NCBI GenBank assembly: GCA_013298565.1
Contig: JAAFIC010000002.1
Location: 1-64,000, forward strand
Origin: Alphaproteobacteria bacterium
GTDB taxonomy: Bacteria; Pseudomonadota; Alphaproteobacteria; Elsterales; Elsteraceae
Direction of reading: 5' to 3'
Length of the DNA stretch: 64,000 nt
Positions 32,306-62,790 of this stretch are shown here, piece after piece. Numbering within the stretch: position 1 is the first letter of the stretch; each line of letters opens with the position of its first letter. The notes below the pieces were generated by a model. The model had not been told where the DNA came from. It searched no databases and worked only from the letters and a program-made list of their open reading frames with translations. A program made the position numbers and the translations under genes.

Positions 32306-33214
32306 ATGTCCACCCCTGCTTCTACTGCTATGACAGGCCGCGACTGGCTTATTCTCGGCATTTTATCGTTACTTTGGGGGGGATCGTTCCTGTTCGGGCG
32401 GGTTGCGGTGGCAGAATGGCCGCCGTTCACAATTGTCTTCTGTCGGGTCGCCGGAGGGGCCGTGATTTTGGCGATAGCGGCGCGGGCGATGGGGCTAGCC
32501 TTTCCCACCAATCGGGGCCTGTGGGGCAGTTTCATTGTTCTGGCGCTGCTGAGTAACGTCATTCCCTTCTCGCTGATCGTGTTTGGGCAGCAGCAGATTG
32601 GGGCCGGGCTGGCCTCCATTCTTAATGCCACCACGCCGCTGTTCGCGCTGCTGGTCACTCATTTTATGACGGAAGACGAAAAGCTCACGCCGCTACGGTT
32701 GGGCGGCGTCGTGTGTGGTTTTCTCGGTGTCACCATCATGCTGGGGCCGAGTGCGGTTACCGGATTAAGCGGCCCGTTGCTGGCTCAGGCCGCCATTCTC
32801 ACAGCGGCTTTATCTTATGGGTGGGCGGTTTGGTACGGGCGGCGGTTGAAGAAGGTAAACCCAATCCAGGCGGCGCTTGGGCAATTGACCGCCGCTTCGC
32901 TGCTCATGGTGCCCTTGATGCTGTTCGCCGACCGGCCCTGGAGCCTGCCGCCATTGTCCTGGCCGGCGATTGGATCGCTGGTTGGGTTGGCGACACTCTC
33001 CACCGCTCTGGCCTATGTGCTCTATTTTCGCCTGCTGGCGCGGGTAGGGGCGGGGAATTCCTCGCTCGTAACCTTCCTCATTCCGCCGAGCGCGCTCCTA
33101 ATGGGCATTCTGTTTCTAAACGAAAGCCTAACGCTGTGGCAGGTTGCAGGAATGGCGGGCATTGGGCTTGGGTTATCTTTGGTCGATGGGCGGTTGTTTC
33201 GCCGGGCTGGGTGA
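32306..33214 (+). CDS. EamA/DMT family transporter
   Basis: SLLWGGSFLFGRVAV; NATTPLFALLVTHF; divergent from previous EamA gene. Confidence 0.87.
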   Translation: MSTPASTAMTGRDWLILGILSLLWGGSFLFGRVAVAEWPPFTIVFCRVAGGAVILAIAARAMGLAFPTNRGLWGSFIVLALLSNVIPFSLIVFGQQQIGAGLASILNATTPLFALLVTHFMTEDEKLTPLRLGGVVCGFLGVTIMLGPSAVTGLSGPLLAQAAILTAALSYGWAVWYGRRLKKVNPIQAALGQLTAASLLMVPLMLFADRPWSLPPLSWPAIGSLVGLATLSTALAYVLYFRLLARVGAGNSSLVTFLIPPSALLMGILFLNESLTLWQVAGMAGIGLGLSLVDGRLFRRAG

Positions 33215-33246
33215 TCCTGGCTGGGTGATCCGGGCTGGGTGATCCT
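33205..33246 (+). repeat. 3 x 14-bp tandem repeat across the EamA stop codon
   Basis: GGCTGGGTGATCCT / GGCTGGGTGATCCG / GGCTGGGTGATCCT; stop TGA at 33212-33214. Confidence 0.95.
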
Positions 33247-33377
33247 GTAACACCACGTAACAAAGCGTGAATTGCTGCAAGCCATTGCCCTTGCTATCTC
33301 TAAACTTGGATTAGATCGCGATGCGGGGAAGAGGCACCCCGCGCGTGATGGCAAGGATCAGCAGCGTGGAGGCAAGC

Positions 33378-45449: not shown

Positions 45450-46637
45450 TTGCTGTCTTCCACACTCGCGATTGCCCACTGCGTTGTCGCTGAAGGGGGA
45501 ATTCGGCCTGCTGCGCGTCGTTTGGCAGCATCTCCGCAAACCTTATCCGAAGCGCTACGTCGTTTCGAAGCCGAAACAACATTGACGCTGTTGGAGCGCA
45601 CTGCGGGCGCAGGGGTTCTGCGGCTTTCGGGTTTTGCCGTGGATGAGACTCTCAGCATTGCTTTCAGGCTTTTGTGCGAACTTGCTCAAATTTGCAATGT
45701 TGGCTATAGCCCCTCAGAGCAAGAGCATTGGGCTGCAACGACAGGGTTAAATATCGACGCCTTGCAGCGGTTGGTTTTAGTTGTGCAAATGGGCAGTATT
45801 CGCGGCGCAGCGTTAGCCGTTGGCATAAACCAGCCGCAATTATCGCGTCAGCTTAAGCATATTGAGGAAAAATTAGGCGTTTGTTTGCTGCATCGTTCCG
45901 TTAAAGGCGTGCAACTTACAACCGTTGGCCATCTTCTCTTGCCCCGTTTGGAGCAGCTCACAAATTTATGGGCAACGCTGCAAGGAACGGGGGATGTTCG
46001 GTTTCGGCGCATGTCCCGCGCCGTTCGCATCGGTTCGATTTTGCAAACAAGCCCGGAAAGCTACATAACGCAAGCGCTTAGTCAGGTCGTGATTGAATGG
46101 ATGGAAGCGCACCCCGAACGCCCGATTTCAGTAAGAGCGATGCCTGCGGATACTCTGCGAGAGGCGCTGCGGGCGCGGCGACTAGATGTCGTGGTGATTG
46201 ATGCGGTGGAGGATTTAGACGAGTTTTCAGTTAAAACCGTTTTGCAGACGGATCTGGTGGCAATCGTGCCCGCCACAAGTATGGGTACATGCTTTGCCGA
46301 TTTTCTCAAAACACATCCGCTGTGCCTTACATCGGAACGAACGGGCCTTGGTCAAGCCTTCGCACAGTTGGCAGCGGAACTTCCGCACGGTATAGCGCAG
46401 ATGCCTATGGTTGAAATTGAATCGCTTCCAGTATTGGTTAACCTCGTTGTGCGGCACGGATTTATATCTCTTCTCGGAAGGCTTTCGGCTGAATATTTAG
46501 GTAATCAGGTAAGAATAGTTGAATTGCCGCGCAAAGTACCATTTAGTTTTTATGTTGTTCATAATGGTATGCCGTCCGCCGTTGAGGTTTCTCAGCGGCT
46601 TGTGTCTATCTTCAAAAGACAATCTTCCTCATCCTAG
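45450..46637 (+). CDS. LysR-type regulator with two tandem N-terminal HTH modules
   Basis: HTH 1 ~ IRPAARRLAASPQTLSEALRRFEAETTLTLLER; HTH 2 ~ SIRGAALAVGINQPQLSRQLKHIEEKLGVCLLHRS; then effector domain. TTG start; divergent from the catabolic operon. Confidence 0.85.
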   Translation: MLSSTLAIAHCVVAEGGIRPAARRLAASPQTLSEALRRFEAETTLTLLERTAGAGVLRLSGFAVDETLSIAFRLLCELAQICNVGYSPSEQEHWAATTGLNIDALQRLVLVVQMGSIRGAALAVGINQPQLSRQLKHIEEKLGVCLLHRSVKGVQLTTVGHLLLPRLEQLTNLWATLQGTGDVRFRRMSRAVRIGSILQTSPESYITQALSQVVIEWMEAHPERPISVRAMPADTLREALRARRLDVVVIDAVEDLDEFSVKTVLQTDLVAIVPATSMGTCFADFLKTHPLCLTSERTGLGQAFAQLAAELPHGIAQMPMVEIESLPVLVNLVVRHGFISLLGRLSAEYLGNQVRIVELPRKVPFSFYVVHNGMPSAVEVSQRLVSIFKRQSSSS

Positions 46638-46796
46638 AGCCGCGCGCCTTAACTCTGGCGCGGCTCTAAAAGCCGCATCAGGCGTGTTTGACACGCCAAG
46701 CGTGTCGGGTGAGGCGGCGGCCAAGGGCACGGATGCGCCCCGCGATGCGCTTGGCGCGTCAAACGCACCGGGCGGCGAGGGCTAAGATAAAACTAG
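46635..46796 (-). repeat. Dispersed hairpin-ended repeat, copy 2 (long form)
   Basis: Reverse complement of 29-190 with only a few differences. Confidence 0.9.
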
Positions 46797-46915
46797 GTGT
46801 TTGGTCCCGGCGTTTGATGGTGCGGATTGAGTGCAAACCGTTCTGGTTCGGTTTCCCAGATTTTGCAGATATAGTCATAGGGTGTGAGGTCGCGCCGGGT
46901 CTTTAGCTGGCGACC
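46793..46915 (-). pseudogene. C-terminal remnant of IS481-family transposase
   Basis: Minus-strand frame reads GRQLKTRRDLTPYDYICKIWETEPERFALNPHHQTPGPNT*, resembling IS481 transposase ends (TPYEYICK-W-SEP-RF---P-HQMPGLN); upstream in-frame stop. Confidence 0.78.
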
Positions 46916-47083
46916 TTAGCTTCTATAGTTTTTTTGGGTTGATGCATTGGAATGCACCCCCCCTACATTCGGGAGGGCATTCGGGAATTTTCGTGCTCTA
47001 CGCACCGTGATAACGTAGTCGGGTTGTGCTGTAGCCGAGACGAGACTATCTGCTTTCGATACAGAGACTTGAGGAGGCGCACC

Positions 47084-47653
47084 ATGACCGACCCCCATTC
47101 CTCCCTTCTGGTGGACCCCCACGCCGATGCCCCCCCTCCGGCGCGGCGGAGAACAGAGGTGCAGACGCTGGAGCTGTCGCCGGACGGCCCCAGCATTCAC
47201 GCTACCTGCGTTGCCTTGCACGGAGTTGGTTTGCTGCTGCGGGGGCCGTCGGGGTTGGGGAAATCCGATCTGGCGTTGCGCTTGATTGATGGCGGCGCGA
47301 CCTTGGTGGCCGATGATCGCACGCTGCTGAGTACGGCGCTTACGGCGGCCGGGCTGATTTTGGTCGCCTCCCCGCCGCCCGCGCTGGCCGGGTTGTTGGA
47401 GGTGCGGGGCCTTGGGGTTGTGCGCCTGCCCTATCAAAGCCTCTGCCCGGTGCAGATGGTGGTGGACGTGCTGGCAGCCGATGACCGGCCCGACCGCTTG
47501 CCCGATCCCGATACGGAAACCTTCCTGGGCGTCACCTTGCCGCGCTGGTGCCTCAATGCACTGGAACCCTCAGCCCCGGCGAAGGTGCGTTTGGCCGTGC
47601 GAATTTTGACCGAGCGTAGCCCGAAGCGCTTGGCCCCGCCCGATCCGATCTAA
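47084..47653 (+). CDS. hprK: HPr kinase/phosphorylase, short alphaproteobacterial form
   Basis: GVGLLLRGPSGLGKSDLALRLIDGGATLVADDRT (P-loop); start MTDPHSS after gaggagg. Confidence 0.9.
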   Translation: MTDPHSSLLVDPHADAPPPARRRTEVQTLELSPDGPSIHATCVALHGVGLLLRGPSGLGKSDLALRLIDGGATLVADDRTLLSTALTAAGLILVASPPPALAGLLEVRGLGVVRLPYQSLCPVQMVVDVLAADDRPDRLPDPDTETFLGVTLPRWCLNALEPSAPAKVRLAVRILTERSPKRLAPPDPI

Positions 47654-47691
47654 ACCCCGATCCGATCTAAACCCCGATCCGATCTAAACTC
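47641..47691 (+). repeat. 3 x 17-bp tandem repeat across the hprK stop codon
   Basis: CGATCCGATCTAAACCC x2 plus CGATCCGATCTAAACTC; first TAA at 47651-47653 is the hprK stop. Confidence 0.95.
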
Positions 47692-47833
47692 AGTCAGGCG
47701 CACGAGCGAGCGCTTTTGCCCGGCCCGAGAATCGGCTATTGTCGGCACCTATTACGGCACGAGAGTTGGGCATGACCGCATCTTCCAGGATTTCAGAGGT
47801 AGGCCGAGACCAAATGCGACTGAGGGAGACGTT

Positions 47834-48751
47834 GTGAGCCGCAGCGCATCCCCCATTCTTCTCGTCTCGGGCATGTCGGGGGCGGGGAAATCCACGGCCC
47901 TACGCGCGCTCGAAGATATCGGCTATGAAGCCGTCGATAATCTGCCATTGCCGCTGCTGCCGATGGTGGCCCAACTCCACGACCGAATTGCCGAGCCGCT
48001 CGCTATTGGCATTGATATTCGCACGCGCGGCTTTTCTGTCGATGAACTCTTGCTGGCGCTCGACCAGATCGAAACCGACACAGGCACCCGCCCGCAGTTG
48101 GTGTTTCTTGACTGCGACGATGACGCGCTGGTGCGCCGCTTTACCGAAACCCGCCGCCGTCATCCACTAGCCGCCGACCGCCCCGCTGCCGATGGCATAG
48201 CGCTTGAACGCGCGCTCATCGGCCCCCTACGCCAGCGCGCTGACGACGTGATCGACACGACAGTGCTAGCGCCCGGCGAGTTTCGGCGGTTGATGCAGGA
48301 GTTGGTGCAAGTGACGGACGGGCGTAGCCTGCTCACCGTCACCGTGCTCTCCTTCTCCTTCCGGCAAGGCTTGCCGCGCGAGGCCGATTTGGTGCTCGAC
48401 GTGCGCTTTCTGCGGAACCCCTACTACGATCTTACCTTACGCGCTTTCGACGGGCGCACCGCCAGCGTTGCGGCGCATATTCAGGAAGACCCCGCTTTTA
48501 GCCCGTTTTTTGCGAATTTTAAGCAGCTTTTAACACCGCTGCTGCCACGGTATCAGGAAGAGGGTAAAAGCTACCTTACGATCGCTTTCGGCTGCACCGG
48601 CGGCAAACACCGTTCAGTGTTTCTGGCGGAAAAAACGGCGGCGTGGTTGACCGAAACGGGGTGGGATGCCGGCATCCATCACCGGGAACTCAAAGATAAT
48701 CGCCCCGCCAAGGGCCGGCGCGACCCCGGCGGGCGGGACGGGGTGGGTTGA
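47834..48751 (+). CDS. rapZ: RNase adapter RapZ / YvcJ family nucleotide-binding protein
   Basis: VSGMSGAGKSTALRALEDIGYEAVDNLP; FGCTGGKHRSVFLAE. Confidence 0.95.
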   Translation: MSRSASPILLVSGMSGAGKSTALRALEDIGYEAVDNLPLPLLPMVAQLHDRIAEPLAIGIDIRTRGFSVDELLLALDQIETDTGTRPQLVFLDCDDDALVRRFTETRRRHPLAADRPAADGIALERALIGPLRQRADDVIDTTVLAPGEFRRLMQELVQVTDGRSLLTVTVLSFSFRQGLPREADLVLDVRFLRNPYYDLTLRAFDGRTASVAAHIQEDPAFSPFFANFKQLLTPLLPRYQEEGKSYLTIAFGCTGGKHRSVFLAEKTAAWLTETGWDAGIHHRELKDNRPAKGRRDPGGRDGVG

Positions 48752-48839
48752 TTGTCTTGACAGCGCCGCGCCCTCAATCTTTTGTACAGCCTCGCGTTTT
48801 CGGTCCCCGGAAGCGCACTAACACCGGGGAAAGGCAAGC

Positions 48840-49244
48840 ATGATCGGTCTGGTCCTCGTAACCCACGGGCGTCTCGCGGCAGAATTTATCGCGGCGCTCG
48901 AACATGTCACAGGCCCGCAACGCAATTGCGTTGCGGTCTGTATCGGCCCCGAAGATGATATGGAGCGGCGGCGGCAAGATATTCTCGATTTCGTCGCTCA
49001 GGTTGATGAAGGCGATGGTGTTGTGGTGCTCACCGATATGTTCGGCGGAACCCCGTCTAATCTGGCCATCTCGATCATGGATAAAGCGCCGGTAGAGGTG
49101 ATTGCGGGGGTGAATTTGCCAATGCTCATCAAACTCGCCTCCTTGCGCGAAACGATCAAGCTGCCCGAAGCGGTGGCCAAAGCGCAGGAAGCTGGGCGGA
49201 AATATATTGCAGTCGCTTCGCGGTTGCTGGCGGGTGAGGCGTAA
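48840..49244 (+). CDS. PTS mannose-type EIIA domain protein
   Basis: MIGLVLVTHGRLAAEFIAALEHVTG; VLTDMFGGTPSNLA. Confidence 0.92.
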   Translation: MIGLVLVTHGRLAAEFIAALEHVTGPQRNCVAVCIGPEDDMERRRQDILDFVAQVDEGDGVVVLTDMFGGTPSNLAISIMDKAPVEVIAGVNLPMLIKLASLRETIKLPEAVAKAQEAGRKYIAVASRLLAGEA

Positions 49245-49248
49245 CGGC

Positions 49249-49551
49249 ATGAGTGTGGAGCACGACCATTCGGTGCAGGTTCTCATTACCAATAAGCGCG
49301 GCTTGCACGCGCGGGCGGCGGCGAAATTCGTTAAGACCGCCGAAATGTTTGATGCCGATGTGCTGGTCTGCCACGCCGAAACTGAGCCGGGCGAAGAGGT
49401 GGAACAAGTCTCTGGTCGCTCGATCATGGGGCTGATGATGCTCGCGGCCTCCCCCGGCACGCGGCTTATGCTCACGGCTTCGGGCGTCGAGGCCGATGCG
49501 GTGCTGGATGCGCTGGCAACGCTGGTCGCCGAAAAATTCCATGAAGAGTAA
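49249..49551 (+). CDS. ptsH: Phosphocarrier protein HPr
   Basis: ITNKRGLHARAAAKFVK; SIMGLMMLAASPGT. Confidence 0.95.
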   Translation: MSVEHDHSVQVLITNKRGLHARAAAKFVKTAEMFDADVLVCHAETEPGEEVEQVSGRSIMGLMMLAASPGTRLMLTASGVEADAVLDALATLVAEKFHEE

Positions 49552-49615
49552 CCCCGGATGAAGAATGCCCCGGATGAAGAATGCCCCGGATGAAGAATGC
49601 CCCGGATGAAGAATG
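49552..49615 (+). repeat. 4 x 16-bp perfect tandem repeat at the ptsH-ptsI junction
   Basis: CCCCGGATGAAGAATG four times, from just after the ptsH stop through the ptsI start. Confidence 0.97.
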
Positions 49616-51414
49616 ATCGAGCGGAAAGCCCGCCGCCCGGTCGCGAGCGGATATTTCAGGGTCTCGGCGTCGCGCCCGGTATCGCCCTCGGCACGGCCTG
49701 GGTTTCTGACGACACGGCCCCATCGACCCCGGAATATATGATCGAGATTGATGGTTTGGCCGCCGAATCTCAGCGCTTGAAAGACGCGGTGGCGCTGGCG
49801 ACCAAGCAGCTTCGCAAACTGAAAGTAAAGTCCCAATCCTTGCCCCCAGCGGCGGCGGAAGAGTTGGGGTATTTATTGGATGCCCGCCTGCAAATGCTGG
49901 CAGGCTCCCGTCTTATTCGCACGGCAGATAAGCTGATAGCGGAATTACGCCTGAATGCGGAAGCGGCGGTGCGTGCCACCGTGGCCGAAATCAGCGACGG
50001 GTTCGCGCGGATGGGCGATGCCTATTTGGCCGCGCGGGGGGAAGACGTGCGGGAGGTGGGCGAGCGGCTTATTCGCTGCCTCATGGCAACGCCTTACGTG
50101 GCGCTCAAGCATCTGCCCGAAGGCTGTATTCTGATTGCGACCGACCTTACCCCAGCGGATACGGCGCTGCTCGACCCGAAGCTGGTGCTAGGCTTTGCAA
50201 CCGAACAGGGCGGCAAGGAAAGCCACACCGCGATTATGGCGCGCTCCTTGGGGGTGCCGGCGATTCTGGGGATTGCCCATCTGGTCGAGGGGCTAAAAAC
50301 CGGCGATCCGATCATTCTCGATGGGCACGCGGGCAAGCTCATCGTTCATCCAACGCCCGAAACCCGCGATCGCTACGAGGCGCAAGGGGTGGCGCTGAAG
50401 CAGGAGCGCAAGCGCCTCTCCCGCCTGCGCGACATGCCTGCGGTCACGCTTGATGGGTTCACCATTAGCCTGAACGCCAATATCGAACTGCCGCGCGACC
50501 TTGAGGGCGCGCACCGGGTGGGCGCGGAAGGCGTTGGCCTACTCCGCACCGAATTTCTTTACATGAACCGCGACCAAGCGCCCGACGAAGACGAGCAATA
50601 TGAGTTTCTGCGCGAGGTCGTGGACGGGATGGACGGGCGTCTCGTTACCATTCGCACCATCGACATCGGCGGCGACAAATTAGCCCCGGCCTTGCGCGAA
50701 CAAATCGGGGAGCCTATCGAAGAAGCGCCGAACCCGGCCTTGGGCGTGCGCGGCGTGCGCCTGTCCCTCGCTCATCCGCGCTTGTTCGAGACACAGCTTG
50801 CCGCTATTCTGCGCGCGGCGGTGCATGGGCCAGTGCGGATTTTGCTGCCGATGATCTCCCACATTGGCGAAGTGCATCAGGCGCGCGAAACTCTAGAGCG
50901 CGTGCACAAGCGCCTGAAGCGGCGCAAGGTCAATGTGCCAGAAAAATTGCCGCCCTTGGGCGTGATGATCGAAGTGCCGGGCGCGGCCTTGTCGGCAGAT
51001 GGCCTCGCGGCGGTATCGGATTTTTTCGCCATCGGCACGAATGATCTGACCATGTACACCCTGGCTATCGACCGAGGGGACGAGCGGGTAGCCGCGCTGT
51101 ATGAGCCTTTGCATCCGGCAGTGCTTCGCCTCATTCAGTTCACCGTAGAAGCGGGCTTGCGCTACCGCATTCCGGTGAGCATCTGCGGCGAAATCGCGGG
51201 CGATCCGCGTTTCGTGCCGTTGCTGCTGGGGATTGGCGTGCGGGAGCTTTCCATGTCCGCGCCCAAACTCCCCAGCGTGAAAGAGCGTATTCGCGCCCTC
51301 AGCCTCACCGAAGCCAGCCGCCGGGCGCGCACGATCATGGATCAAGCCGACGCCAAACGCATCGGCGAGTTGCTTGATGATTTCATCGCCAATCTCGGTG
51401 TTCACTCGGTCTGA
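49597..51414 (+). CDS. ptsI: PTS Enzyme I
   Basis: GGKESHTAIMARSLGVPAILG; EGVGLLRTEFLYM; FAIGTNDLTMYTLAIDRGD. Start ambiguous (49597 or 49606). Confidence 0.95.
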   Translation: MPRMKNDRAESPPPGRERIFQGLGVAPGIALGTAWVSDDTAPSTPEYMIEIDGLAAESQRLKDAVALATKQLRKLKVKSQSLPPAAAEELGYLLDARLQMLAGSRLIRTADKLIAELRLNAEAAVRATVAEISDGFARMGDAYLAARGEDVREVGERLIRCLMATPYVALKHLPEGCILIATDLTPADTALLDPKLVLGFATEQGGKESHTAIMARSLGVPAILGIAHLVEGLKTGDPIILDGHAGKLIVHPTPETRDRYEAQGVALKQERKRLSRLRDMPAVTLDGFTISLNANIELPRDLEGAHRVGAEGVGLLRTEFLYMNRDQAPDEDEQYEFLREVVDGMDGRLVTIRTIDIGGDKLAPALREQIGEPIEEAPNPALGVRGVRLSLAHPRLFETQLAAILRAAVHGPVRILLPMISHIGEVHQARETLERVHKRLKRRKVNVPEKLPPLGVMIEVPGAALSADGLAAVSDFFAIGTNDLTMYTLAIDRGDERVAALYEPLHPAVLRLIQFTVEAGLRYRIPVSICGEIAGDPRFVPLLLGIGVRELSMSAPKLPSVKERIRALSLTEASRRARTIMDQADAKRIGELLDDFIANLGVHSV

Positions 51415-58239: not shown

Positions 58240-58295
58240 AGCCAATCTTGTCGATAGTCTCGATATTCGCTGCGGTTGGGTCTTATCAGGCCCTT

Positions 58296-58331
58296 AGGGC
58301 GTCTTGCGTTAACCTTTACGCAAGACGCTCT
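58296..58331 (+). terminator. Stem-loop downstream of the MCP gene
   Basis: AGGGCGTCTTGCGTTAA-cc-TTTACGCAAGACGCTCT with one internal mismatch; abuts repeat copy 3. Confidence 0.75.
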
Positions 58332-58432
58332 AGTATTATCTTAGCCCTCGCCGGGCGGGCGCATCCGCGCCCTTGGCCGCCGCCTCAATGGCGGCTTTTA
58401 GAGCCGCGCCAGAGTTAAGGCGCGCGGCTCTA
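58330..58432 (+). repeat. Dispersed hairpin-ended repeat, copy 3 (short form)
   Basis: Same ends as copy 1 but lacking two internal hairpin-rich segments. Confidence 0.88.
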
Positions 58433-62583: not shown

Positions 62584-62656
62584 CGGCGGCCAAGGGCGCG
62601 GATGCGCCCGGCTAAGCGCTTGGCGCGTCAAACACGCCGCCCGGCAAGGGCCAAAA
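62584..62656 (-). repeat. Dispersed repeat, copy 5 (partial, inverted relative to copy 4)
   Basis: GGCGGCCAAGGGCGCGGATGCGCCC...CTTGGCGCGTCAAACACGCCGCCCGGCAAGGGC matches the internal part of the repeat on the minus strand. Confidence 0.75.
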
Positions 62657-62690
62657 TCATCGTGCGCCATAGGTGACGCTCGATGCTCTC

Positions 62691-62790
62691 GCTTTATTTT
62701 AGCCCTCGCCGGGCGGGCGCATCCGCGCCCTTGGCCGCCGCCTCAATGGCGGCTTATAGAGCCGCGCCAGAGTTAAGGCGCGCGGCTCTA
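62691..62790 (+). repeat. Dispersed hairpin-ended repeat, copy 4 (short form)
   Basis: TTTTAGCCCTCGCCGGGCGGGCGCATCCGCGCCCTTGGCCGCCGCCTCAATGGCGGCTTATAGAGCCGCGCCAGAGTTAAGGCGCGCGGCTCTA, nearly identical to copy 3. Confidence 0.9.

Follow-up and report, generated by a model that had tools for sequence, protein, structure and literature searches.

A fourfold exact 16-bp repeat at the ptsH-ptsI junction of an Elstera lineage: a likely recent, lineage-specific amplification of the ptsI start region

This study analyzed a 64,000-nucleotide stretch of DNA (hereafter, the window) from an alphaproteobacterium of the family Elsteraceae, the source assembly of which comprises 126 contigs and 3.02 Mb and is 97% complete. 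The window contains an operon of PTS-related genes, and Pfam searches confirmed the HPr, EI, EIIA-Man, RapZ, and HPr-kinase domains in this operon. Two exact tandem arrays are located within it, one at the end of the hprK-like gene and the other between ptsH and ptsI. The features are as follows.

46952..47653, + strand: hprK-like gene (HPr kinase C-terminal domain, Pfam), the real start of which is probably ATG 47084
47639..47689, + strand: second exact array, three copies of the 17-bp unit CCCGATCCGATCTAAAC, with the hprK stop codon in the first copy
47834..48751, + strand: rapZ-like gene (Pfam)
48840..49244, + strand: gene for an EIIA of the PTS mannose/fructose IIA type (Pfam), upstream of ptsH
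49249..49551, + strand: ptsH, encoding HPr (Pfam PTS-HPr, 2.7e-24), with its stop codon TAA at 49549-49551
49541..49561, + strand: mini-ORF of 6 codons (ATG AAG AGT AAC CCC GGA TGA), the TGA of which overlaps the ATG of repeat copy 1
49552..49615, + strand: tandem array, four copies of CCCCGGATGAAGAATG, with units starting at 49552, 49568, 49584, and 49600
49597..51414, + strand: ptsI, encoding enzyme I (EI), 605 aa from ATG 49597 or 602 aa from ATG 49606

Repeats of other types were also observed. At 33205-33247, the window carries a 14-bp tandem array of 3.1 copies with 93% matches. A dispersed element of approximately 165 bp, which comprises two strong hairpins (DNA fold z = -4.0), has copies at 46630-46800, 1-190, 58295-58430, and 62584-62790, and one copy is located between a LysR-like gene and hprK. 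Dozens of copies of this element exist in the genome (at least 45 matches); they differ by internal indels, and several contigs end in the element. The E. litoralis genome (G002) exhibited 12 matches, which were mostly partial, and the genome of a second congener (G001) exhibited only fragments.

The tandem-repeat search revealed that positions 49552-49615 consist of 4.0 exact copies of a 16-bp unit (100% matches, score 128) placed directly 3' of the ptsH stop codon, which bears out the four perfect repeats described in the initial annotation of this DNA. The unit matched the 3.02-Mb assembly four times, each time within this array, and the unit read backward, which served as a control, yielded no match in the assembly. 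Because a 300-kb Markov-1 resample of the genome contained no exact array with a period >10 bp, a chance origin of the array was excluded. The ptsI frame opens at ATG 49597, at the end of copy 3, or at ATG 49606, in copy 4. Translation from ATG 49606 yields the N-terminus MKND, which is homologous to the N-termini in G001 (MKND) and E. litoralis (MKSD). One detail deviates from the initial annotation, in that ATG 49606, and not the upstream ATG 49597 (MPRMKND), is the homologue of the start codons in relatives. The ATG at 49558 was, as had been claimed, in the ptsI frame and stopped at TGA 49591 inside the array.

We located ptsH and ptsI in the loci of relatives, turned the minus-strand loci, and took the first plausible in-frame codons as the predicted ptsI starts. 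Two loci (L037 and L038) were left out of the junction count because they probably duplicate L036 and L013, and the count comprised 20 distinct relatives with neighbouring ptsH and ptsI. An array resembling four copies of CCCCGGATGAAGAATG was found at the junction in none of these 20 relatives (G001, G002, and 18 further loci); one locus (L021) carried a 9-bp repeat of 2.1 copies close to the junction. The most common ptsI start, observed in nine of the 20 relatives (L006, L008, L009, L010, L012, L014, L018, L036, and L039), was an ATG at -11, within the last ptsH codons. Four other relatives overlapped by other amounts, six started within +10 nt, and one started at +78. An overlap or a distance of at most +10 nt was therefore present in 19 of the 20 relatives, compared with +45 (ATG 49597) or +54 (ATG 49606) in the window. 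As far as can be judged from the sequences, the out-of-frame overlap of ptsH and ptsI at -11, conserved in relatives, suggests a tight coupling of HPr and EI.

The 3' end of ptsH in the window carries an ATG, at 49541, in the position of the -11 ptsI start of the relatives, and the 7-mer ATGAAGA at this old start position is found again in the repeat unit. The mini-ORF at 49541..49561 probably represents a remnant of the overlapping start that ptsI used ancestrally. At the junction in G001, a single overlapping ATGAAGAATGA was found. In E. litoralis, the same dead -11 ATG is followed by a new ptsI start 5 nt past the ptsH stop. Elstera litoralis is among the genomes closest to the window, which accordingly derives from a species of Elstera. 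E. litoralis is nearer to the window than G001 is, with identities of 92% versus 89% for EI and 92% versus 85% for HPr; the EI value for E. litoralis (L035) refers to the best segment. In the simplest history, the start region would first have been duplicated in an event shared with E. litoralis, which shifted the ptsI start beyond the end of ptsH; amplification in the window lineage would then have expanded 16 bp to four copies. The array would be tolerated because its last unit keeps the authentic ptsI start.

Exact arrays with a period of at least 12 were more frequent in this genome than in its congeners: 20 were identified in 797 kb, compared with one in 677 kb of G001 (binomial p = 7e-5) and none in 170 kb of E. 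litoralis. The contigs of the 797-kb sample were picked by number and not by content, except the window's own contig and contig C105. The contrast was kept when a 40-bp array located in the dispersed element was removed (19 versus 1, p = 1.3e-4) and when the two arrays of the pts operon were removed (18 versus 1). The 17-bp array at the end of hprK was absent from both congeners. Two contigs end inside mutL (the end of C109, L123, and the start of C87, L124) and overlap by 113-131 nt; the sole difference in the aligned stretch was an 18-bp indel located between direct repeats, a probable polymorphism which suggests that the source population is variable for repeat-mediated indels. Compared with G001, mutL also carries a GSFQG/GSFQA duplication. 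Loss of mismatch repair or of RecJ was considered as a cause of the excess and rejected: mutS and recJ were intact, and mutL was split by the contig break with both parts in frame.

The exact copies, their absence from relatives, and the genome-wide excess of exact tandem duplications support the slipped-strand type of origin that had been proposed for the array. The array is most likely one among many recent short duplications of this genome, and it is probably nearly neutral. We consider it likely, on balance, that the complete description applies, namely that the array is a recent, lineage-specific, slippage-type amplification of the ptsI start region that belongs to the genome-wide excess and is nearly neutral. 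A 64-bp array without a mismatch fits recency and also fits homogenisation or selection. Selection could, as an alternative, be the source of the clustering of a four-copy and a three-copy exact array less than 2 kb apart in one operon. Arguably, the more general point is not the array itself but the genome-wide surplus of exact tandem duplications in this Elstera lineage.

Junctions carrying 0-8 copies were reconstructed in silico, and all ATG, GTG, and TTG codons in them were traced. The simulation revealed that the ptsI start falls in the last units at any copy number from 1 to 8. With one copy, ptsI starts with MKND, and with two or more copies an extra in-frame ATG adds an optional Met-Pro-Arg; only the difference between one copy and two or more alters the protein. 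Reading from the earlier array ATGs ended after 8-14 codons, and the final array ATG opened an out-of-frame stretch of 42 codons. Because each upstream ATG meets a TGA two copies on or at the array end, these ATGs provide no frame switch or phase variation, and the array cannot, from its sequence, work as a reading-frame switch. A change of copy number would still be predicted to alter how far the ptsI start lies from the ptsH stop, how many decoy starts intervene, and the parity of the ATGA overlaps described below, and may conceivably tune ptsI quantitatively.

The main effect of the array would be a lengthening of the ptsH-ptsI gap from 6 nt, with one copy, to 45 or 54 nt. This longer gap should weaken the direct termination-reinitiation coupling of ptsH and ptsI, and with weaker direct coupling ptsI would therefore depend to a greater extent on independent initiation or on a relay through mini-ORFs. 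In reporter experiments, a 38-nt gap decreased reinitiation by 80-100% in three E. coli gene pairs (PMC10666635). The same article also cites some synthetic-operon studies in which coupling occurred across long gaps. By extrapolation from other species, the ancestral overlap would permit coupling, whereas a gap of 45-54 nt would be expected to do so only with a relay of ribosomes. The array is a clear natural example of a tandem duplication of a start region that separates two probably coupled genes and leaves both proteins undamaged.

Such a relay can be traced along the array, where the TGA of a mini-ORF overlaps, in the form ATGA, the ATG located two copies downstream. ATGA overlaps in general support termination-reinitiation (PMC6728339, PMC10666635), and the old -11 ATG also terminates in an ATGA on copy 1. 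According to the sequence logic, which is exact for 1-8 copies, an odd copy number yields a chain from copy 1 to copy 3, copy 5, and so on to the full-length ptsI start. With an even copy number, as in the present array of four, the chain leads to copy n-1, which is out of frame and reaches a TGA located 8 nt beyond the start of ptsI, and a restart is possible only at an internal Met (558 codons). Ribosomes crossing the array through these overlaps would couple ptsH and ptsI strongly when the copy number is odd and weakly when it is even. However, passage over several mini-ORFs of 8-11 codons would cost ribosomes each time, ribosomes that initiate at copy 2 or de novo in copy 4 would circumvent the relay, and the present even number would represent the weak state. 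We therefore regard the relay as unlikely. That copy-number parity, and not the frame of one ORF, would act as a quantitative switch, driven by slippage, for the ratio of EI to HPr appears less likely still. If true, the relay would constitute a new way of turning repeat copy number into an expression level.

The initial annotation had suggested a different use of slippage, in which a change of copy number selects another in-frame upstream ATG and thereby tunes or switches ptsI initiation. The unit length is no multiple of 3 and perfect repeats are prone to slippage, both of which agree with this model, but no upstream array ATG read into ptsI for 1-8 copies. The context of the ptsI start was, moreover, constant for two or more copies, and the predicted anti-SD pairing upstream of this start was weak and unchanged for 2-6 copies (-3.3 kcal/mol; -2.4 for one copy), which renders the model very unlikely. 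The array could instead present protein or RNA binding sites that control ptsI, for example repeated GGA motifs for CsrA, and four evenly spaced GGA motifs were indeed present. Against this explanation, CsrA was found neither in this genome nor in eight relatives, with E. coli and B. subtilis controls positive; the array folded no better than shuffled sequences (z = 0.14); Rfam yielded no match in 46500-49800; the unit CCCCGGATGAAGAATG occurred in no relative and nowhere else in the genome; and 16 bp corresponds to about 1.5 helical turns. Control by such sites is consequently highly improbable, and a CsrA-regulated leader was rejected, csrA not being found in the 97% complete assembly. Promoter and terminator searches of the array gave no match on the + strand, with counts near the shuffled expectation; one terminator-like match was located nearby, at 49618-49639 on the - strand. 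An assembly or sequencing artefact in the copy number, for which the fragmentation of the source assembly into 126 contigs might speak, seems just as improbable: the 64 bp are shorter than the usual read length, the array has a single unambiguous place in the assembly, and the exact arrays in open frames elsewhere in the genome have periods that are mostly multiples of 3, as real duplications under coding constraint would have.

Literature searches for tandem repeats that carry start codons retrieved none and gave only unrelated chloroplast papers; we compared the array with four known systems. Similar to bacterial minisatellite (VNTR) loci, the array consists of short, exact head-to-tail copies beyond chance, is lineage-specific, with no array at the site in close relatives, and presumably has a copy number changeable by slippage. 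It differs from these loci in that it carries start codons yet cannot switch the frame, and it was seen here in one genome. With frame-switching contingency loci it shares a repeat near the start and a unit that is not a multiple of 3; in contrast to these loci, in which copy number moves an upstream start into or out of frame, no upstream-ATG frame ran through the window array into ptsI at any copy number tested (1-8). The array also resembles the MIRUs of the M. tuberculosis senX3-regX3 operon, which likewise stand in tandem between two operon genes of the same direction. MIRUs are about 50-100 bp in size and carry small ORFs, the ends of which overlap neighbouring genes. The MIRUs in the senX3-regX3 intergenic region have been reported to drive senX3-independent regX3 expression (PMC4213456). 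They differ from the window unit in sequence and are larger and dispersed, whereas the window unit is present at one locus only (four matches, all in the array) and is without a promoter-like match. Termination-reinitiation at ATGA overlaps (Huber et al. 2019, 2023) involves one overlap between two genes, whereas the window, read from its sequence alone, presents a series of mini-ORFs; as in that system, a stop and a start codon overlap in an ATGA, which each unit contains and where the mini-ORF opened two copies upstream terminates.
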